A DNA stretch of 64,000 bases from Verrucomicrobiaceae bacterium (GTDB lineage: Bacteria; Verrucomicrobiota; Verrucomicrobiia; Verrucomicrobiales; Verrucomicrobiaceae), in the NCBI GenBank assembly GCA_027487315.1, contig JAIYDW010000037.1:1-64000 (forward strand), in the 5' to 3' direction. Below the pieces are notes generated by a model. The model saw nothing but the letters and a program-made list of their open reading frames with translations. It did no database searches and was not told the origin of the DNA. A program made the position numbers and the translations under genes. This document shows, one piece after another, positions 27,636 to 35,116 of this stretch. Every line of letters starts with the position of its first letter. Positions within the stretch are counted from its first letter, which is position 1.

Positions 27636-28577
27636 ATGAGCTGGCCTCATCGCATGGCGGAACTTTCGGGGTTGCCTGGACCTGTGGCGGTGGCGATTGG
27701 GGTGTTTGATGGTTTGCATCGGGGGCATCAGGAGGTGGTGCGTGCGGCGGTGGAGCATGCGAGGCAGCACCGGGGGACGGCGGTGGTGTTGACGTTTGAT
27801 CCGCATCCGGCGACGGTGCTGAGTCCGGAGCGGGTGCCGCCGTTGCTGACGACGCCGGGGCAGCGGAGGCGGTTGGCCGCTGAGATGGGGGTGGAGCATC
27901 TGGTGGCGCTGCCGTTTGATCAGGCGATGGCGGCGACGTCGCCGGAGGGATTTGTGGAGGGTCTGATGGAGGCGTGTCGGCCGTTAGGATGTGTGTCGGT
28001 GGGGTATGACTGGCGATTTGGTGCGGGGGGAGTGGGCAATGTGCATTTTTTGATGGATGCCGGGGCGAGGGATGGGTTTTCGGTTTACGGGGTGCCGCCG
28101 GTGAAAGTGGACGGGCGGGTGATCAGCAGCACGTGGGTGAGGGAGGCGGTGACGGCGGGGGATTTGGATTTGGCGGCGACGTTGTTGGGGCGGCGCTTTG
28201 GTTATCTGGGAGTGGTGGAGAGGGGAAGGCAGTTGGCGGGGCAGATGGGTTTTCCGACGGCGAACGTGCGGTTGGAGACGCAGGTGCATCCGCCGCAAGG
28301 GGTGTATGTGGGCGAGGTGATTTTGGGAGGGGAGAAACGGGGGGTGGTTTGCAATTTGGGGAGGCGACCGACGGTTGAGGCGGAGGGGGCGTTGTCGCTG
28401 GAGGCGCATGTGCTGGACTGGACAGGGGATCTTTATGGGCAGGAGATCGAGGTGCGGCTTTCGCACCTGCTGCGCGGTGAGCGTCGGTTTGACGGGGTGG
28501 AGGCGCTGTTTCAGCAGATTCGATTGGATATCGAGGCTGGACGGCGTTGGTGGGAAGGTTTTCGAGGAAAAGATTGA
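27636..28577 (+). CDS. ribF: Bifunctional riboflavin kinase/FAD synthetase
   Basis: The product (313 residues) makes FMN and FAD from riboflavin. The N-terminal nucleotidyl transferase domain has AVAIGVFDGLHRGHQEVV and VLTFDPHPATVL; GYDWRFGAGGVGNVHFL and ISSTWVREAV follow. The C-terminal kinase domain shows RQLAGQMGFPTANVRL and VHPPQGVYVGEVIL. ATG at 27636 is used; a TTG 18 bases earlier keeps the frame and an ATG at 27654 is also possible. It is the last protein gene before ssrA, as in many translation operons. Confidence 0.95.
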   Translation: MSWPHRMAELSGLPGPVAVAIGVFDGLHRGHQEVVRAAVEHARQHRGTAVVLTFDPHPATVLSPERVPPLLTTPGQRRRLAAEMGVEHLVALPFDQAMAATSPEGFVEGLMEACRPLGCVSVGYDWRFGAGGVGNVHFLMDAGARDGFSVYGVPPVKVDGRVISSTWVREAVTAGDLDLAATLLGRRFGYLGVVERGRQLAGQMGFPTANVRLETQVHPPQGVYVGEVILGGEKRGVVCNLGRRPTVEAEGALSLEAHVLDWTGDLYGQEIEVRLSHLLRGERRFDGVEALFQQIRLDIEAGRRWWEGFRGKD

Positions 28578-28621
28578 ACGTGACCGGTTTCGCGGGTATC
28601 TGATCTTTGTCTCAACGACAT

Positions 28622-28974
28622 GGGGGCGTCACGGTTTCGACGGGTAGCCTGAAGTCGTAGTGGCATGCCGAGGATGATTCGTTGGCCTCGTAAATCACCG
28701 AGTCAAAACAAACAAACGCAAACTCTAACGAGCTAGCACTCGCGGCTTAAGCCCCGCGACATCCTGACGGCAATGTCTAGTAGCCGGCCGGATGCACTCA
28801 CTAGGCTGGTCAGTTGACCGGGTCACCGGGTCGAAGACGAGATTCAACAGGGGTCTAGGTGAAGGGGATTCTGCCGATCGAAGCCCTCAACCGAAATCAA
28901 ATGAACGGCTAAGCATGTAGAAGCTGCGGTAGACGGTTGCTCGGACAGGGGTTCGACTCCCCTCGCCTCCACCA
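28622..28974 (+). ncRNA. ssrA: Transfer-messenger RNA
   Basis: The 5' end GGGGGCG (28622-28628) pairs with CGCCTCC (28964-28970) before ACCA, forming the acceptor stem; GTTTCGACGGG near the start and GGTTCGACTCCCC near the end are the usual tRNA-like parts. The resume codon GCA (28718) opens a tag of ten residues, ANSNELALAA, ending at TAA (28748-28750). Total length is 353 nt with pseudoknot-rich middle sequence. It rescues stalled ribosomes and marks their products for proteolysis. The 3' CCA is encoded. Confidence 0.96.
28934..28974 (+). other. Likely prophage attachment site (attL) in the ssrA 3' end
   Basis: An integrase gene follows ssrA at once, and the 3' end of tmRNA is a common target of tyrosine integrases. 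The T-arm and acceptor part (GGTTCGACTCCCC to CCACCA) would be the shared core. The matching right site lies outside the window, so the core length cannot be measured. Confidence 0.45.
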
Positions 28975-28984
28975 TTCAAAAAAG

Positions 28985-29024
28985 AGCGCTGGGCCTTGTA
29001 AAATAAGGTCTGGCGCTTTTTTTG
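28985..29024 (+). terminator. Intrinsic terminator of ssrA
   Basis: AGCGCTGGGCCTT (28985-28997) pairs base by base, with three G-T pairs, to AAGGTCTGGCGCT (29005-29017), and seven T residues follow. It lies 10 bp past the tmRNA CCA. If the prophage is inserted within ssrA, this terminator came with the phage or was duplicated. Confidence 0.93.
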
Positions 29025-29102
29025 TGGGTTGGTGGGTTGGGGCTGAATTTGGCCTTTTTTGGCTCTTTTTGGCCTTGTTTTGGGTGTAAAAGTGGGTAAT
29101 TC

Positions 29103-30338
29103 GTGGGCATGTCTGAGGGGGCGGAAGTGGTGTCTTTTGGGGGGGCGGTGTGCCGGGTGGCACGGCGCTCGGATGGGCGTTGGGTGGTGCGGTGGCGGGA
29201 GGCGCGGGTGGGGCGTTCGACGACTTCGATGTCGAAGGAGGGGGCGATGAAGTTGGCGCGGGCGAAGGTGCGGGAGCTGGCTGGGGGGATTGGTGGGCAG
29301 GTGGTGACTTCGGGGGAGGTGGAGTTGATCAAGCGGCTGAAGGCGGTGGCGGGGGAGCGGTCGTGTTTTGCGGTGCTGGATCTGTTGGAGGATGCGGTGA
29401 AGCGGCTGGGGGGATGGGAGGTGTTTGGGCGGGCGCTGCGGTTTTATGAGGCGTCCGGTATGGCGACGGTGGAGCGGGTGACGGTGAAGAAGGCGAGGGA
29501 TAAGTTTTTGGATGCTTATGAGGCGAAGGCTCGGTTGACGCGGGCGGGGCTGCGGAAGGAGCTGGATGCGTTTTGTGCGACGTTTGAGGGGCTGGCGGTG
29601 TGTGATCTTTCGGTGGAGATCCTGGGGCCGTGGATCCTGCGGCCGCGTGCGGATGGGTTGGCGGTGGGGGCTCGCTTTGCGAACAATCGATTGGATTCCT
29701 GGCGGACGTTTCTGAACAAGTGTCGCGGGTGGAATTTTTGGCCGAAGGGGGAGAAGCATCCGGCGGAGTTGATCGAGCGGCAGAAGGAGGCGAGTCGGTT
29801 GCCGCCGATTTGGTCGGTGGAGCAGATCCGGAAGGCGCTGGGGGCGGTGGAGCTACGGCAGCGGCCGTATTTGGTGCTGGGGTGTTTTGCGGGGTTGCGG
29901 CCGTTTGAGCTGACGCGGCTGCAGTGGGAGCACGTGGATTGGGTGCGGGGTTACGTGCATGTGCCGCCTGAGGTGGCGCTTAAGACTTTGCAGGAGCGGT
30001 TTGTGCCGCTGGAGGCGAATGCGCGAGCGATGCTAAGTGGTTGGATAGGGAAGACGGGGAAGTGCTGCCAGGTGCATGATCGGGAAGAGATCAGTTTGGT
30101 GCTGCGGGGGGCGGGGATCATTGATAGTTGGCCGCAGGATGTGATGCGGCATAGCTACATCAGTTATCGCATTGCGCGGGGCGATGGGGCGGGGGTGGTG
30201 GCGGAGCACTCGGGGAACTCAGAGAGGATCATTCGGAGGCACTACAGGCGGCCGTTGATGCGGGAGGATGGGGTGGGGTGGTTTGGGGTGACGTTAGCTG
30301 AGGCGGGGGAAGCAGAGGGCGAAGAGGAGGAAGCCTAG
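29103..30338 (+). CDS. int: Tyrosine recombinase (phage integrase)
   Basis: The 411-residue protein has the catalytic domain of tyrosine recombinases at its C-terminus. The first Arg is in LGCFAGLRPFELTRLQWEHV near residue 265, the His-Arg box reads QDVMRHSYISYRI, the next His is in VVAEHSGNSERI and the nucleophile Tyr in IIRRHYRRP. The N-terminal 60 residues look like an arm-binding domain (RRSDGRWVVRWREARVGRSTTS). It should insert and excise the prophage at ssrA. GTG at 29103 and ATG at 29109 are both possible starts. Confidence 0.93.
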   Translation: MGMSEGAEVVSFGGAVCRVARRSDGRWVVRWREARVGRSTTSMSKEGAMKLARAKVRELAGGIGGQVVTSGEVELIKRLKAVAGERSCFAVLDLLEDAVKRLGGWEVFGRALRFYEASGMATVERVTVKKARDKFLDAYEAKARLTRAGLRKELDAFCATFEGLAVCDLSVEILGPWILRPRADGLAVGARFANNRLDSWRTFLNKCRGWNFWPKGEKHPAELIERQKEASRLPPIWSVEQIRKALGAVELRQRPYLVLGCFAGLRPFELTRLQWEHVDWVRGYVHVPPEVALKTLQERFVPLEANARAMLSGWIGKTGKCCQVHDREEISLVLRGAGIIDSWPQDVMRHSYISYRIARGDGAGVVAEHSGNSERIIRRHYRRPLMREDGVGWFGVTLAEAGEAEGEEEEA

Positions 30339-30388
30339 GAGCCACAGTGTGCAGGCTTTGGCGGCTGAGGCTATCGTGAGGGCGAGGA

Positions 30389-31054
30389 TCATTTCCAGTT
30401 TCGATCAAAAGCGCGGCGGACCTCAAATGCTTTGAATCCGGGTTCAATGTAGCGAAAGAAAAAAGGTAATACCTGGAGGTCAATTTCAGTGAGTGCTTGA
30501 CGTGGTTTGTCGCGATAGGGTCCAAGCACGCTGTCGACGGGGGATTGCGAGTGACCGCTGAATCCAAGTGCTGCCATGATGGCGATGTGAGCTTGTTCGG
30601 TGAACAATTCGAGACTGCCCTGTTCAACGCTCAATATGACCAGGGAACGAGTGAGTTCGTTCGATCCATTCCACCATTTCCACCATCCCCAGGTGCGGGT
30701 GCCAATTGGGGTAACGCCGTGTTTTTTGACGGCGGCGATGAAGTCTTTTCGTTCGACAATGACGATGCGAAATGGGGCTTCATTGAAGCGTGGCGCCATG
30801 AGGGGAAAATGAAATGGAACAGGAGCCAGTGCATCGTTGATGCTTTGAAGTATGGTGGTGCAAGCCGCTTCTGGTTCTGGATTTGAAGTTTCGTTGTAGA
30901 TGGTAACGGCTCCGGGGCTGGCCCAACGTTGAGTAGGCTGCTTGGGGTCGCTAGCGACGTCCTCCACGAATTTGCGCAACGCTTCCGGCGTTGGCTGTTG
31001 GGAAAATGATAGGAGAGGTTGGGATGCCACCAAAAGAAGTAAGATTGCCTTCAT
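30389..31054 (-). CDS. Exported protein of unknown function (possible moron gene)
   Basis: The product (221 residues) starts with a signal peptide, MKAILLLLVASQPLLSFSQQ. The C-terminal half (EQAHIAIMAALGFSGHSQSPVDSVLG, then LTEIDLQVLPFFFRYIEPGFKAFEVRRAF) resembles DUF2927-like putative peptidases in spacing, but I am not certain. It lies against the direction of the phage genes and its base use is more even than theirs, which suggests separate acquisition. Such genes between integrase and repressor are often expressed from the prophage and alter the host. Function unknown. Confidence 0.7.
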   Translation of the reverse strand: MKAILLLLVASQPLLSFSQQPTPEALRKFVEDVASDPKQPTQRWASPGAVTIYNETSNPEPEAACTTILQSINDALAPVPFHFPLMAPRFNEAPFRIVIVERKDFIAAVKKHGVTPIGTRTWGWWKWWNGSNELTRSLVILSVEQGSLELFTEQAHIAIMAALGFSGHSQSPVDSVLGPYRDKPRQALTEIDLQVLPFFFRYIEPGFKAFEVRRAFDRNWK

Positions 31055-31158
31055 GGAAGCAAGGTAGCATGGCAGTCAAGGCCAAGGGCCGCGAATCACG
31101 TTGCGGCTGGGGTAGCTGCGAACATTTAGATGAGAGTTTTTGGCGAGGTCGATTTTTT

Positions 31159-31428
31159 CTAACTCGCTTTGTTTTTGCGTGGCGGGGTGCGGTAGGGTGC
31201 GGATTGTTCAGCAAGGAGAGCGATGCTGTTGATATCGGGGTCGTCGGCCGCGATCTCCATGCGCAAAGGAAAAGCGATGCGCCCTGTGCTGTGATATGCT
31301 TCAAGAGCGGCTTCTAAAGCTGCACGGGCTAAGGTTACGCCTTCGATTTTGGTGGCGGTTTCAAAGGCGTTAAGGCGGTCGGTGGTGGTCTGATCCAGGC
31401 GGAGGCCAAGGTTACGAGCATTTTTCAT
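31159..31428 (-). CDS. Small ribbon-helix-helix-like regulator
   Basis: The 89-residue protein begins NARNLGLRLDQTTTDRLNAFETATKIEGVTLARAALEAALEAY, a pattern of one strand and two helices close to the ribbon-helix-helix fold of Arc/CopG repressors. The tail is Pro- and Lys-rich. It is transcribed leftwards away from an array of GCCAAC repeats that it probably binds. Given the position beside the early operon, it is a candidate lysogeny repressor or its modulator. Confidence 0.6.
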   Translation of the reverse strand: MKNARNLGLRLDQTTTDRLNAFETATKIEGVTLARAALEAALEAYHSTGRIAFPLRMEIAADDPDINSIALLAEQSAPYRTPPRKNKAS

Positions 31429-31440
31429 GTGTAGCCCTTA

Positions 31441-31510
31441 GTGGAAAAAGTTGGCATTGCCAACAAAAAGTTGTTGCGCACTCTGCCAACATCGCCAACA
31501 ATGCCAACAT
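31441..31510. promoter_or_regulatory. Operator array of GCCAAC repeats between divergent regulators
   Basis: TTGGCATTGCCAA (31451-31463) is a perfect 13-bp palindrome. To its right GCCAAC occurs three times at 9-bp steps (31485, 31494, 31503), the last touching the start of the rightward gene. Inverted and direct repeats of short boxes at this spacing are the usual targets of ribbon-helix-helix repressors. The array covers the whole space between the two regulators, so both promoters should be controlled from it. Confidence 0.75.
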
Positions 31511-31693
31511 ATGAGATCGGTGCATGCGAAACTAGACGACGAGCTGGACAAGGAGCTGACAGACTTGGAAGCGAGAACACGACTGAGCGCGGCTGACTTG
31601 ATGCGCCAGGGCCTGATGAGAGTGGCGAAGGAAGTTAAGACGCTGGGGAAGCTGGAGATTCTAACGGACGTGGGTGCTGAGGAAGCAGTCTGA
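31511..31693 (+). CDS. CopG-like ribbon-helix-helix protein
   Basis: The 60-residue product reads MRSVHAKLDDELDKELTDLE, then ARTRLSAADLMRQGLMRVAKEV, a short strand followed by two helices as in CopG/Arc DNA-binding proteins. ATG at 31511 was chosen because the longer frame from TTG 31451 would run through the operator array. It heads the rightward operon with the BRO-type gene 29 bp downstream. It likely acts as a Cro-like or arbitrating regulator together with the leftward gene. Confidence 0.7.
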   Translation: MRSVHAKLDDELDKELTDLEARTRLSAADLMRQGLMRVAKEVKTLGKLEILTDVGAEEAV

Positions 31694-31722
31694 ACACTGA
31701 GAGAAATTTAGGAGTGAACGAG

Positions 31723-32634
31723 ATGATGAACACTGACAACGACACGACTGGCCTGATGAGGGCATTTGATTTTAACTCCCATCCGGTGCGGGTGGTCGAG
31801 CGCGACGGGGCACCGTGGTTTGTTGCGGCAGATGTTTGTCGGGTATTGGACCTTTCTAATCCATCAAAGGTGTGCGGAGATTTGGATGAGGACGAAACAA
31901 TGACCCTAACTACTAGTGAGGGTCATTCTGGTCAGCGTGGCGGGGCGCAGTTTTTGAATGTCATTTCCGAATCCGGCCTCTACGCGCTGGTGTTCAAGTC
32001 CCGCAAGCCTGAGGCGAAGGTGTTTCGGCGGTGGGTGACGTCGGAGGTGCTGCCTGCGATCCGGCAGACGGGGGCTTATGCGGTGGGGGGCTCTGGTGAT
32101 GGGCTGGGGATGAGTGAGGACAGGGAGAGCATTTTGCGCTTTGTGCGGGGGTGCTGCGCGGGTTGGCCGCTGGAGCGGCAGTTGGAGTTCGGGCTGGCGG
32201 TGCGGCGGTTTGCGAAGGGGATGGGGGTGGTGTTTGAGACGGCGGTGGAGCCTGGGGTGGGACGGGTGCTGGTGTTTCCAAAGGTGGTGCTGGAGGAGGT
32301 GCGCAAGCGTTACACGACGGTGACCCGCCTGCCTGACAGCGATGCGGTGGAGTTTGAGAAGCTGCTGCTTACGGCGGTGGAGGGGATGGGGGCTGAGGGG
32401 CAGATGTCCTGCGAGCTGCTGCGCGGGCTGGCTAAGACGCTGAGCCTTTTCCCCGGCATTTTTGGGCCGAATACGAGTCTGGCGAGCGAGCGGAGCGGGT
32501 TTGGGAAGCTGGCGCAGCGATTCAATGGGCTGCGGTTTCCGAGCGGGGTGGTGCTGACGATCAGACGTCGCAGCGACCGGGTGACTTATTTCATCAAGCG
32601 GGACGCGGCCTACGGGGTGGCGCTGCTGAGCTAG
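31723..32634 (+). CDS. BRO-family phage antirepressor
   Basis: The product (303 residues) opens with a BRO N-terminal DNA-binding domain: FDFNSHPVRVVERDGAPWFVAADVCRVLDLSN, then ISESGLYALVFKSRKPEAKVFRRWVTSEVLPAIRQTGAY. The rest (about 130-303) has no family I recognise and may be the regulatory or ligand part. AGGAG eight bases before ATG 31723 decides that start over GTG 31714. Antirepressors of this type work in the switch from lysogeny to growth. Confidence 0.85.
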   Translation: MMNTDNDTTGLMRAFDFNSHPVRVVERDGAPWFVAADVCRVLDLSNPSKVCGDLDEDETMTLTTSEGHSGQRGGAQFLNVISESGLYALVFKSRKPEAKVFRRWVTSEVLPAIRQTGAYAVGGSGDGLGMSEDRESILRFVRGCCAGWPLERQLEFGLAVRRFAKGMGVVFETAVEPGVGRVLVFPKVVLEEVRKRYTTVTRLPDSDAVEFEKLLLTAVEGMGAEGQMSCELLRGLAKTLSLFPGIFGPNTSLASERSGFGKLAQRFNGLRFPSGVVLTIRRRSDRVTYFIKRDAAYGVALLS

Positions 32635-32704
32635 TGACTTTCAGGCCCTCTACCAGCGGGGCGGTGCGAGCTGGGAAAAACAACCCAAAGCGGAGGACAA
32701 CGCG

Positions 32705-33292
32705 ATGACGACGACGACAAAAGAACCAAGCAAGAGAAGAACGGTTAGGGGTGTGCAAGCGCAGCCGAAGGGACGCACACAGGTGGGAGGCCGGGGGCCT
32801 CGCCAGATGGGGGCTGTGAACGATACGGAGACGCGGGCTGTGATGCTGGGGCATACCGTTCGCATTTTAGCGGATTACGATGGGCTCAAAGGGCACTATG
32901 CGAAGGTGCTGAGCAGCGGTGGGGGGCAGGTGGAGGTGAATGTGCATCTTTACGGGAAGCTGGAGCCGAGGCGGGTGATTTTCCTGGAGCGGGAGCTGGC
33001 GGTGGTGCCGATGAATGACACGCTGACGGACACTGGGGAGGCGATGGCAGTCGATGCGGAGGTGTATGTGATGATTCGGCGATGCGCGAATTTGAGGGCG
33101 GAGGCGCGGGTCGGGCCAGTTTCGACGGTGGTGGCGGAGAGGCTGGAGAGAAGAGCGAAGAAGCTGCACGATGTGGTGCGGTGCCTGCAGCGGGCGCGGT
33201 CGGTGCGGCAGGCGCATCAGTGGGTGAGGGACGTGGGGACGCCGTGCTGTTATGCGCTGGTGGTGGTGAATGAAGGGAGGATCGGGGCATGA
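32705..33292 (+). CDS. Phage protein with a possible KOW/SH3-like barrel
   Basis: A 195-residue basic protein. Residues about 45-105 (MLGHTVRILADYDGLKGHYAKVLSSGGGQVEVNVHLYGKLEPRRVIFLERELAVVP) look like a KOW-type small barrel as in NusG or ribosomal L24. The remaining C-terminal half is helical and Arg-rich. The N-terminal 40 residues are Lys/Arg/Gly-rich and probably disordered. It may bind nucleic acid, perhaps in transcription control; this is inference from the fold guess. It opens the long early operon. Confidence 0.6.
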   Translation: MTTTTKEPSKRRTVRGVQAQPKGRTQVGGRGPRQMGAVNDTETRAVMLGHTVRILADYDGLKGHYAKVLSSGGGQVEVNVHLYGKLEPRRVIFLERELAVVPMNDTLTDTGEAMAVDAEVYVMIRRCANLRAEARVGPVSTVVAERLERRAKKLHDVVRCLQRARSVRQAHQWVRDVGTPCCYALVVVNEGRIGA

Positions 33293-33489
33293 GTCGCTTG
33301 AGCGAACAAATCGAATGGCGGGAGTCTTCGGTGGAGATGCCGGATGATGAGCAGTCGGTGCTTATTTGTGCGGGCGGCGAAGTGGGTGAGGCGTTTCACG
33401 ATGATGGGGCTTGGTATTGGGCAAGTGGTGGCGGTTTCAAGGGTGAGGTGATTTGGTGCCCGATGCCTGAAGGGAGGGCTGGGGTATGA
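33289..33489 (+). CDS. DUF551-like small protein
   Basis: The 66-residue product has IEWRESSVEMPDDEQSVLICAGGEVGEAF, then a Trp-rich middle and a final VIWCPMPEG. The spacing of the opening Trp, the Pro-x4-VL strand and the terminal W-x-P-x-P-E matches DUF551 proteins, which are common in prophages and of unknown function. It overlaps the genes before and after by four bases (ATGA). Confidence 0.7.
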   Translation: MSRLSEQIEWRESSVEMPDDEQSVLICAGGEVGEAFHDDGAWYWASGGGFKGEVIWCPMPEGRAGV

Positions 33490-33782
33490 AGCTGTTTGAG
33501 GTGCTGATGGGGTTTGAGGATATGATGCATCACTACACGGCGATGTGTTTGTGTCGGGCGGAGGTGGACTGGATGGCGGTGATGGAGGCGGAGGAGCGGG
33601 TGCGGTTTGTGTTTCGGCTGCTGGAGGGGGTGAAGGTGGAGGTGGCGCGGGTGCGGGAGCTGGATGTGCTGGAAGCGTGGCGGATCGGGGAGGCGCAGGG
33701 TCCGACGTGGGGGCGGATTTCGAAGGCTGAACTGGCGGAACTTGAAAACGAAGAAAGGAACCTAAATTGTGAATGCGAGTGA
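33486..33782 (+). CDS. Early phage protein, unknown, 98 residues
   Basis: A short acidic, mostly helical protein (KLFEVLMGFEDMMHHYTAMC, then VDWMAVMEAEERVRFVFRLLEGVKVEVARVRELDVLEAW). I recognise no family. It is coupled to the previous gene at GGGGTATGA and overlaps the next by 14 bases. The Asn/Glu-rich end (ENEERNLNCECE) is unlike the rest. Confidence 0.7.
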   Translation: MKLFEVLMGFEDMMHHYTAMCLCRAEVDWMAVMEAEERVRFVFRLLEGVKVEVARVRELDVLEAWRIGEAQGPTWGRISKAELAELENEERNLNCECE

Positions 33783-34047
33783 GTTGTTCTTGAGTGGGAT
33801 GGTGACGGGGGTGCTGCTGACGATCGCGGTGCTGGTGGCGGCGAAGCGGCCGAGAAGACGGGTGCGAGGTGATGGGGAGTCTGAGCGGCAGTGGATGCGG
33901 GCGGTGGATCAGGCGTTTGTGAAGGGGCGTGAGGAGGGGCTGGAGATGCGGCTGCCTAAGCAGGTGCTGAGGATCGAGACGGTGGGGCGCGGGTGGCGGG
34001 GGACGACGAAGCCGATCACGGCGGACGATGGAAGGGGGGCGGCGTGA
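33769..34047 (+). CDS. Small phage membrane protein
   Basis: The 92-residue product has one membrane helix near its start (LFLSGMVTGVLLTIAVLVAA) followed by a very basic stretch (KRPRRRVR), predicting an extracytoplasmic N-terminus and a cytoplasmic tail of about 65 residues. Translation begins at GTG (33769), inside the end of the previous gene. Function unknown. Confidence 0.68.
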   Translation: MNASELFLSGMVTGVLLTIAVLVAAKRPRRRVRGDGESERQWMRAVDQAFVKGREEGLEMRLPKQVLRIETVGRGWRGTTKPITADDGRGAA

Positions 34048-34847
34048 TGCGTGTGGATGTGGTGGAACAGTCGGTGCTGCTGCCGTGGGAGCGGTCGCAC
34101 AGGGGGTATCGATGGAAGGATATGCCTGGGAATGGTGAGGAGGATAAGAAGCTGAATTTCTACCTGTTTCGGACGGGGAGGATGCAGCTGGAGGAGGTGA
34201 AGGTGGAGCTGGAGTTGGAGGGGGAACTGCCGCAGGAGGTGACGGTGCCGATGGTGGAGGGTGGCTGGCGGTTGGGTGAGAAGGCGAAGGTGGAGAAGGC
34301 GAAGGGGATGGCGCTGGCACAGCGGCGGAAGAAGCTGCGGGTGGTGAAGCAGCCGTTTGGGAAGATCGGTTCTTTGCTGACGGATGTGACGCGGCGGCGG
34401 CGGGTGGTGACGGCGGAGCAGTTGTCTTTGGTGGAGGAGTATAAGGGGCTGTCGGCGCGGATGAACCGGATGGACTCGCCGCGGTCGATGATTATCGGTG
34501 TGATTCGGACGTTGGGCGGGAAAGAGGGGCCGTTTCTCAATGGGCTGGAGCGGGGCCAGGGGTGGACGCCGGAGATGCTGGGGATGGTGCGGCAGGCGCT
34601 GCCGATCATGCGGGCGCATGTGGAGGTGGTGGAGGCGACGCTGGCGCGGGTGCAGGCGGCGTGGGGGGTGTTTGAGCAGGGGCGGATGAAGAGGCGGCTG
34701 TGGATGGTGGATTTGATGCGGGCGAGTGGGTTGAGTGATCAGGCGGTGAAGGATTTTCGCGCTGGGGGGCTGCCGACTTTGAAGACGCTGAAGGCTTTGG
34801 AGAAGGGGCTGAATGCGCTGAACAGGAAGGAGGGGGCTGGGGTATGA
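34047..34847 (+). CDS. Early phage protein with a C-terminal helix-turn-helix
   Basis: The product (266 residues) is rich in Lys, Arg and Glu, with long helices in the middle (AQRRKKLRVVKQPFGKIGSLL and VEVVEATLARVQAAWGVFEQ). The C-terminus, WMVDLMRASGLSDQAVKDFRAGGLPTLKTLKALEKGLNAL, has the form of a Cro/C1-type helix-turn-helix. It may regulate transcription or replication, but I recognise no named family. ATG 34047 shares its A with the TGA stop of the previous gene. Confidence 0.7.
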   Translation: MRVDVVEQSVLLPWERSHRGYRWKDMPGNGEEDKKLNFYLFRTGRMQLEEVKVELELEGELPQEVTVPMVEGGWRLGEKAKVEKAKGMALAQRRKKLRVVKQPFGKIGSLLTDVTRRRRVVTAEQLSLVEEYKGLSARMNRMDSPRSMIIGVIRTLGGKEGPFLNGLERGQGWTPEMLGMVRQALPIMRAHVEVVEATLARVQAAWGVFEQGRMKRRLWMVDLMRASGLSDQAVKDFRAGGLPTLKTLKALEKGLNALNRKEGAGV

Positions 34848-35116
34848 GTCGGGGGCTTTACACGGTGGCGGAGGTGGCGCGGTATCTGGGCAAGCGGCCG
34901 CAAGAGGTGGTGGCGATGATCGAGCGCGATAAGCTGCCTGCTTGCAACATGCCTGGTGAGAAGCGGCTGCGGTGGAAGTTCACGCTTCATGGGCTGCATC
35001 GCTGGCTGTCGAGTCGGTCGACGGGTGGGCCGTTTATGACGCTGGAGGAGCTGGCGTGGGAGATTGAGCGGGCGCAGGTGTGTGAGAAGAAAGAGGAAGA
35101 GGAGGTGGGGGTATGA
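34844..35116 (+). CDS. Excisionase-like helix-turn-helix protein
   Basis: The 90-residue product begins GLYTVAEVARYLGKRPQEVVAMIERDKLPACNMPGEKRLRWKF, the winged-helix layout of MerR-like excisionases, followed by HGLHRWLSSRST and an acidic tail. It could be the Xis that directs excision at ssrA, or another early DNA-binding protein. Its start is coupled to the previous stop at GGGGTATGA. Confidence 0.72.
   Translation: MSRGLYTVAEVARYLGKRPQEVVAMIERDKLPACNMPGEKRLRWKFTLHGLHRWLSSRSTGGPFMTLEELAWEIERAQVCEKKEEEEVGV

Follow-up and report, generated by a model that had tools for sequence, protein, structure and literature searches.

A divergent ribbon-helix-helix gene pair with a conserved operator-like gap as a probable immunity cassette of a verrucomicrobial prophage

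INTRODUCTION

Which protein keeps a prophage silent when no repressor of the lambda CI/Cro type is found beside its integrase? This question is raised by a prophage of a Verrucomicrobiaceae bacterium, located on contig JAIYDW010000037.1, of which a stretch of 64,000 nucleotides (the window) was analyzed. Here, two divergent genes for small ribbon-helix-helix (RHH)-like proteins, RHH-A (leftward) and RHH-B (rightward), enclose a short gap rich in repeats, and a BRO-domain gene follows RHH-B. The textbook bacterial RHH pair, Mnt and Arc of phage P22, is a secondary immunity module serving a helix-turn-helix (HTH) repressor. The original prediction for the present locus was that the RHH pair, together with a BRO antirepressor, may hold lysogeny itself. 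We followed up this prediction computationally.

RESULTS

The prophage is integrated at a tmRNA gene (28622-28974), the 3' end of which contains the attL core TTCGACTCCCCTCGCCTCCACCAT (28952-28975, plus strand), as located by the tmRNA call and a shared 24-mer. Since this 24-bp copy of the tmRNA 3' end recurs as attR at 74485-74508 on the same contig, beyond the window, the prophage is complete and closed, extending from 28952 to 74508 (about 45.5 kb). The rightward gene order is integrase, BRO, HTH_17/Cox-like, ParB-like, DNA methyltransferase, primase-like, terminase, portal, protease, major head protein, and tape measure. The integrase is a tyrosine recombinase (29103-30338, plus strand; Phage_integrase, E = 3.9e-7; phrog_1, E = 4.8e-17). 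On the minus strand, an ORF co-oriented with and behind RHH-A encodes a 221-aa protein (30389-31054) with no Pfam family at E 0.01; it is possibly expressed in the lysogen, as a candidate cargo gene. Near attR, a 413-aa protein (L002:7731-8969) gave weak matrixin and astacin matches (E = 0.006 and 0.008, below the cut-off) and contains an HExxHxxGxxH-like stretch. GC skew is strongly positive, about 0.2 to 0.5, across the whole window (1-64000), in host and prophage alike.

To search for a classical repressor, Pfam was run at E 0.01 on 60 prophage ORFs of at least 45 aa (55/60 plus-strand candidates, without an 810-aa plus-strand ORF, and 5/73 minus-strand candidates); RHH-A, RHH-B, and BRO were scanned separately. 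Neither a CI/Cro-type HTH nor a lambda-type pair of HTH repressors was found among these 60 ORFs, in which HTH_17/Cox-like and HTH_ParB were the sole HTH families (25 of 26 families listed). The HTH_17/Cox-like protein (34844-35116, plus strand; HTH_17, E = 4.9e-10; Phage_Cox, E = 9e-4) is of excisionase type and is not a CI-type repressor; it has homologues in L124, L126, and L127 and is kept in relatives with either repressor type. Six-frame searches of this contig with PF01381 (HTH_3) and PF00717 (S24 peptidase) also returned nothing. Thus, the predicted lack of a CI/Cro-type HTH repressor near the integrase now holds over the closed prophage by Pfam and six-frame profiles, and a classical repressor elsewhere in the complete element, which would speak against the predicted switch, was not found as far as these profiles reach. 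Because PF01381 also misses the HTH protein that occupies the corresponding slot of a related prophage (G067, see below), absence by one model is no proof, and a divergent repressor could still be encoded.

RHH-A starts at 31428 on the minus strand and RHH-B at 31511 on the plus strand, and direct reading of the 82-bp intergenic gap between these starts shows that it is filled by repeats. On the left, a perfect palindrome with the core TTGGCATTGCCAA (31451-31463) extends to the 15-bp GTTGGCATTGCCAAC (31450-31464), a putative left operator that came from the repeat search and has a GTTnnCnTTnnCAAC-like aligned counterpart in five relatives. On the right, the same search gave three plus-strand boxes that would form the right operator: TGCCAAC (31484-31490), CGCCAAC (31493-31499), and TGCCAAC (31502-31508), the last of which stops 2 bp short of the RHH-B start codon. 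Their GCCAAC units begin at 31485, 31494, and 31503, a spacing of exactly 9 bp. Between the two operators lies the element AAAAAGTTGTTG (31465-31476, plus strand), which the gap alignment picked out and which has close counterparts at C244, G012, G065, and G064 but not at G002. TTGGCANTGCCAA matches once in the window, versus 0.01 expected, and GCCAACNNNGCCAAC twice, versus 0.07 expected, with at least two matches reached in 0 of 100 shuffles. Across the whole 5,874,343-bp genome, the triple GCCAAC box matches once and its backwards control never. GCCAAC or GTTGGC occurs 5 times within the 82 bp, versus 0.065 expected from the contig density (62 in 77,819 bp), and the densest spot elsewhere on the contig holds 2. 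The palindrome and the three boxes at 9-bp steps are therefore present as predicted, at counts far above chance. The longest inverted repeat in the gap, of 10 nt, was matched by 2 of 200 dinucleotide shuffles; long inverted repeats were clear in three of seven slots tested (the window, L124, and L128) and not in L126, L044, L046, or L047.

A candidate rightward promoter, TTGCGC-N17-AACAAT (31474-31502, plus strand), is weak (7/12), is the best at the window locus, and was missed by a consensus promoter scan. Its putative −10 hexamer, AACAAT, arises from the box unit itself and would coincide with the boxes, at a distance of 8 nt from the RHH-B ATG; the RHH-B transcript would therefore be leaderless or carry a very short leader. 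AACAAT counterparts are found 6 nt ahead of the ATG at C244 and G002.

RHH-B (31511-31693, plus strand; 60 aa) matches RHH_1 (E = 0.0044) and RHH_3 (E = 0.0064), both below the Pfam cut-off, while its G012 relative passes RHH_3 (31.8 bits versus a cut-off of 21.6). A profile of the six-member RHH-B family matches the DinJ antitoxin in the PDB (E = 8.6e-6). RHH-A (31159-31428, minus strand; 89 aa) by itself has no RHH match in Pfam. In profile comparison, RHH-A aligns with the RHH-B profile across 46 columns (E = 3.3e-6), and the two proteins are therefore probably paralogues; BLASTP gave no match between them, their kinship being visible only with profiles. The strand-helix-helix of the RHH superfamily is thus recognized by sequence profile in both proteins, in RHH-A only via RHH-B, and the prediction of two divergent RHH-like flanking genes stands on this footing. 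AlphaFold models of RHH-A and RHH-B, computed as monomers, were poor (pLDDT 58.3 and 57.4) and showed helices only and no strand.

The BRO gene (31714-32634, plus strand) encodes an antirepressor-like protein of 306 aa from a GTG (303 aa from the ATG at 31723). It carries a Bro-N domain (E = 1.5e-23) and matches phrog_130, anti-repressor Ant (E = 1.1e-43), placing it among BRO/Ant antirepressors and bearing out the predicted BRO gene. At the six loci with an RHH pair described below, BRO adjoins the pair at two (the window and G012); tblastn did not find it at the other four (C244, G002, G064, and G065), which keep the pair. The C-terminal domain of the window BRO is 51% identical to that of L044, a phage with an HTH repressor, versus 42% to that of G012, which has RHH-A, and 41 to 42% to those of L045 to L047. 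Because BRO is present at only two of six loci and its C-terminal domain is closer to that of an HTH-repressor phage, it is not tied to repressor type. As a dedicated antirepressor of the RHH pair it is unproven, and it could act on a different repressor, on a factor of the host, or on something that both repressor types have in common.

Of 496 confirmed BRO loci in viral contigs, 80 were considered, and the four full-length ones among these were read. The leftward gene encodes an HTH protein in L044 and RHH-like proteins in L046 and L047, and the leftward ORF of L045 did not read through. The L047 protein matches RHH_1 at 21.5 bits, over the cut-off of 20.5; the L046 protein has no Pfam match and is 68% identical to that of L047. 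RHH family HMMs found no relative at the other 76 of these 80 loci (best E = 0.53). The rightward genes of L044 to L047 and of G016 are RHH-like by eye, and Pfam gave nothing over the cut-off for them.

Relatives of RHH-B were found in 3 of 68 family genomes, its own genome included, and relatives of RHH-A in 5 of 387 genomes of a phylum sample and 10 of 386 of an order sample. In database genome contigs, RHH-A matched two loci, both in Verrucomicrobium strains; the host family appears to include Verrucomicrobium sp. BvORR106 and BvORR034. No relatives of RHH-A or RHH-B were confirmed in viral contigs, and RHH-B had no match among annotated phages. Of 14 order-sample RHH-A matches, six loci showed a divergent pair that could be read and were taken further, namely the window, C244 (own genome), G012, G002, G065, and G064; the other eight matched at E = 7.7e-13 to 3.5e-4 and were left out. 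Among these eight are RHH-A-like genes of 65 aa without a recognizable RHH-B, at G064:C130:27275-27448 and G065:C51:25658-25828.

The divergent pair and the operator plan recur at all six loci. Their gaps align as a GTTnnCnTTnnCAAC-like left palindrome, an AAAAAG...TTG element (five loci), and then half-sites that end 0 to 9 bp before the RHH-B ATG. Three to four half-sites recur at 9-bp steps in the window, C244, G012, and G002 (the last with four GCCAAC) and at steps of about 10 bp in G065 and G064. Alignment of the window gap beat 500 of 500 shuffles with C244, G012, G002, and G064; that with G065 was weak (11 of 500 shuffles reached the score), and alignments of G002 with G065 and G064 were not above chance (119 and 127 of 500 shuffles reached the score). 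The own-genome locus, C244:7278-7833 (L009, L027), is a second divergent RHH pair with GCCAAC boxes, with an RHH-B 65% identical to that of the window over 52 residues. Downstream of it lie relatives of the window early genes at 33486-34847, and BRO is absent. The two elements could cross-regulate one another.

Slot content beside related integrases differs among prophages, as seen in seven of eight relatives (G012, G013, G067, G016, G007, G046, and G048 were inspected and G009 was left out). In G067, whose prophage is inserted in the tmRNA gene as in the window, the leftward gene encodes a CI-type HTH protein (PF07022, E = 4.1e-4; 21.1 bits versus a cut-off of 22). The leftward proteins of G016 (HTH_31, E = 3.5e-8) and of the viral contig L044, a BRO relative (HTH_31, E = 4.9e-8; HTH_31/HTH_3), exceed the cut-off. 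G012 and G013 carry RHH-type pairs; that of G013 gave weak matches only (NikA-like, E = 0.0013; FitA-like RHH, E = 0.014), and its gap contains 15-bp inverted repeats that were reached in 0 of 200 shuffles. No repressor was recognized by eye in the slots of G007 and G046, the latter with an internal stop in its integrase, and G048 retains an integrase fragment only. A GYF_2-domain membrane-like protein (over the Pfam cut-off) lies between integrase and repressor in three related phages, at L029:6969-7487, L126:2032-2469, and L044:2922-3740.

The comparison of G012 with G016 is the most direct. G012 RHH-A and the G016 HTH protein have a common 61-residue C-terminal tail, with 39 of 61 residues identical (64%; E = 1e-17). 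At the DNA level, the two are homologous over the integrase (73%), the GYF_2 gene (81%), and the repressor tail (74%); homology ends at about residue 63 of RHH-A, and none was found in the region of the head and operators or in RHH-B and BRO. Two unlike heads, RHH in G012 and HTH in G016, are thus carried on a common tail in the same slot. As read from these alignments, G012 versus G016 is an immunity-cassette exchange in which the head is replaced along with the operators and the rightward gene, as in exchangeable cassettes of the lambda type. The window RHH-A is 59% identical to that of G012 over the head (59 columns) and has a different, shorter tail. Strong tail homology to HTH proteins was confined to G012 (C244 versus G016, E = 0.56; window RHH-A versus L044, E = 0.11). 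An RHH domain ending the G016 HTH protein was suggested by Antitox_RHH (E = 0.0014, below the cut-off) and the family HMM (E = 0.0046); it is not claimed, because hhalign of RHH-A against two HTH proteins found nothing. Candidate RHH-like stretches behind the HTH were noted at L126:2989-3525 and L044:3798-4403, both on the minus strand, with Antitox_RHH at E = 0.0014, below the cut-off, in L126; hhalign did not confirm them.

In Arc, alternating residues of the strand contact DNA, and this was used to pick the corresponding RHH-A and RHH-B positions. In RHH-A they read N-G-R (N-x-G-x-R) at the three GCCAAC loci (the window, C244, and G002), T-G-R at G012, with GTTAAC/GATAAC boxes, and L-G-R at G065 and G064, with GTAAC/GTTAC boxes. 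In RHH-B they read S-H-K in the window and C244 and R-M-T in G002 despite its GCCAAC boxes. Because the strand residues of RHH-A, not those of RHH-B, are common to the GCCAAC loci, this pattern points to RHH-A as the main reader of the boxes, although six loci, two of them near-identical, are too few to count the covariation as shown.

DISCUSSION

Our data indicate that this locus is real, functional-looking, and conserved and that, judged from sequence, it is a known kind of module in an apparently new role. The RHH pair and the gap probably constitute the immunity cassette of this temperate prophage. RHH-A, with a CI/Mnt-like role as the proposed lysogeny repressor, would keep the prophage silent; it would regulate its own gene by binding the left palindrome, beside the RHH-A promoter, and would bind cooperatively to the boxes that cover the rightward promoter at 9-bp steps. 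RHH-B, the product of the first early gene rightward, would likewise be a repressor acting on this gap, in a role like that of Arc or Cro, and would shut off RHH-A and damp early transcription after induction. BRO, in the same operon, would probably lift repression by this or another phage's repressor. The predicted RHH-pair lysogeny switch thus gains an immunity-type operator between divergent RHH genes, a CI-type HTH protein encoded by the corresponding leftward gene of relatives, and one HTH/RHH head swap, with the switching itself kept as a proposal.

In plan, the window locus appears to work like P22 immI, a likeness of layout alone. In the immI sequence (BK000583), mnt runs leftward, Oarc and Omnt lie in the gap, and arc and ant run rightward, the same order and orientation as in the window. 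The gap is 90 bp in P22 and 82 bp here, the rightward repressor 53 aa (Arc) and 60 aa (RHH-B), and the antirepressor in the same direction 300 aa (Ant) and 303 to 306 aa (BRO). According to the accessible part of PMC11016777, Mnt acts as the repressor of both arc and ant, Arc in turn represses mnt and has a moderating effect on ant, and Ant binds C2. In contrast to P22, which has C2/Cro besides immI, no C2-like, CI-type, or S24 gene was found in the window prophage. The window proteins had no detectable homology to Mnt, Arc, and Ant (hhalign/BLASTP E = 0.52, 0.042, and 0.94/0.59), Arc reached no better than E = 0.052 against the six-row profile, PF03869 had no match in the window proteins, and Rfam found only the tmRNA, and no sar-like antisense RNA, in 28500-34000. 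The HTH cassettes of G016, G067, and L044 resemble the lambda-type CI/Cro region and share with the window the slot, the divergence from a small rightward gene, and the related integrase; the leftward DNA-binding head is HTH in these and RHH in the window. An RHH protein, F55 of SSV1, is described as CI-like and binds tandem repeats over early-gene starts and its own gene (PMC5569661, accessible part). Unlike the window with its divergent pair, SSV1 is an archaeal virus with a single RHH repressor acting at several promoters, and the same part of that source describes no divergent RHH pair. To call the switch less common, as originally predicted, is therefore fair, with the qualification that its layout is that of immI and that SSV1 already provides an example of a lysogeny repressor of the RHH type. 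In the literature covered, which excluded most subscription journals, we recognized no bacterial RHH primary switch and no verrucomicrobial phage repressor.

The pair could instead provide secondary immunity only, controlling just BRO, while the true lysogeny repressor is an unrecognized prophage protein. This would match P22, whose immI, the equal of the window in layout, is the secondary region beside immC in the accessible parts of PMC11016777 and PMC8022706, and many prophage ORFs are without a family. However, immI lies in the late region, whereas the window pair adjoins the integrase and stands at the front of the early genes; the pair also outlasts BRO at four loci, and relatives have an HTH repressor in the same slot. 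We therefore regard a purely secondary role as unlikely, while granting it some weight. That the HTH_17/Cox-like protein is the main switch, merely tuned by the RHH pair, is improbable. Besides ParB it is the only HTH-family match among the scanned ORFs (25 of 26 families listed), and Cox of the P2 type represses the lysogenic promoter; its gene, however, points rightward inside the early operon, and because it is kept in L124 and L126 beside their own HTH repressor, it is a constant partner rather than an alternative.

Antitoxin-type autoregulation, as in a remnant toxin-antitoxin pair with BRO or another neighbor as the toxin, would fit the DinJ match, the closest in the PDB to the RHH-B profile, and the weak RHH_3/RelB-type matches. 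Yet no toxin family matched in the Pfam-scanned neighboring genes, two divergent RHH genes are present, and the slot is exchanged with CI-type repressors, so that we consider this reading quite improbable. Least of all do we expect the palindrome to be a terminator or RNA hairpin rather than an operator. A terminator-like call does fall on it (31464-31450, minus strand, then a T-run), but it lies upstream of both genes, terminator-like sites number 3 versus 4.2 in shuffles, and at other loci the hairpin is broken (GTTAACATTCGCAAC, GTTAACTTTGTCATC) while the aligned bases are kept.

For the RHH-pair immunity cassette, a broader and more tentative proposal follows the G012/G016 comparison: the lysogeny repressor of these verrucomicrobial phages may be modular, with a common tail, a head of the CI-type HTH or RHH kind, and operators and rightward partner that change along with that head. 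Where the head is RHH, lysis or lysogeny would be decided entirely by a pair of RHH paralogues that compete as repressors for the tandem boxes, without any CI/Cro. If this is true, an RHH pair takes the primary slot and HTH and RHH heads swap on one tail, which would open the evolution of immunity specificity to experiment, with operators, heads, and tails exchangeable and separately readable. It would also explain why repressor searches with HTH models overlook the switch in some prophages, and the small operator set (GCCAAC, GTTAAC, and GTAAC types) would be useful for learning how RHH strands choose their sequence.
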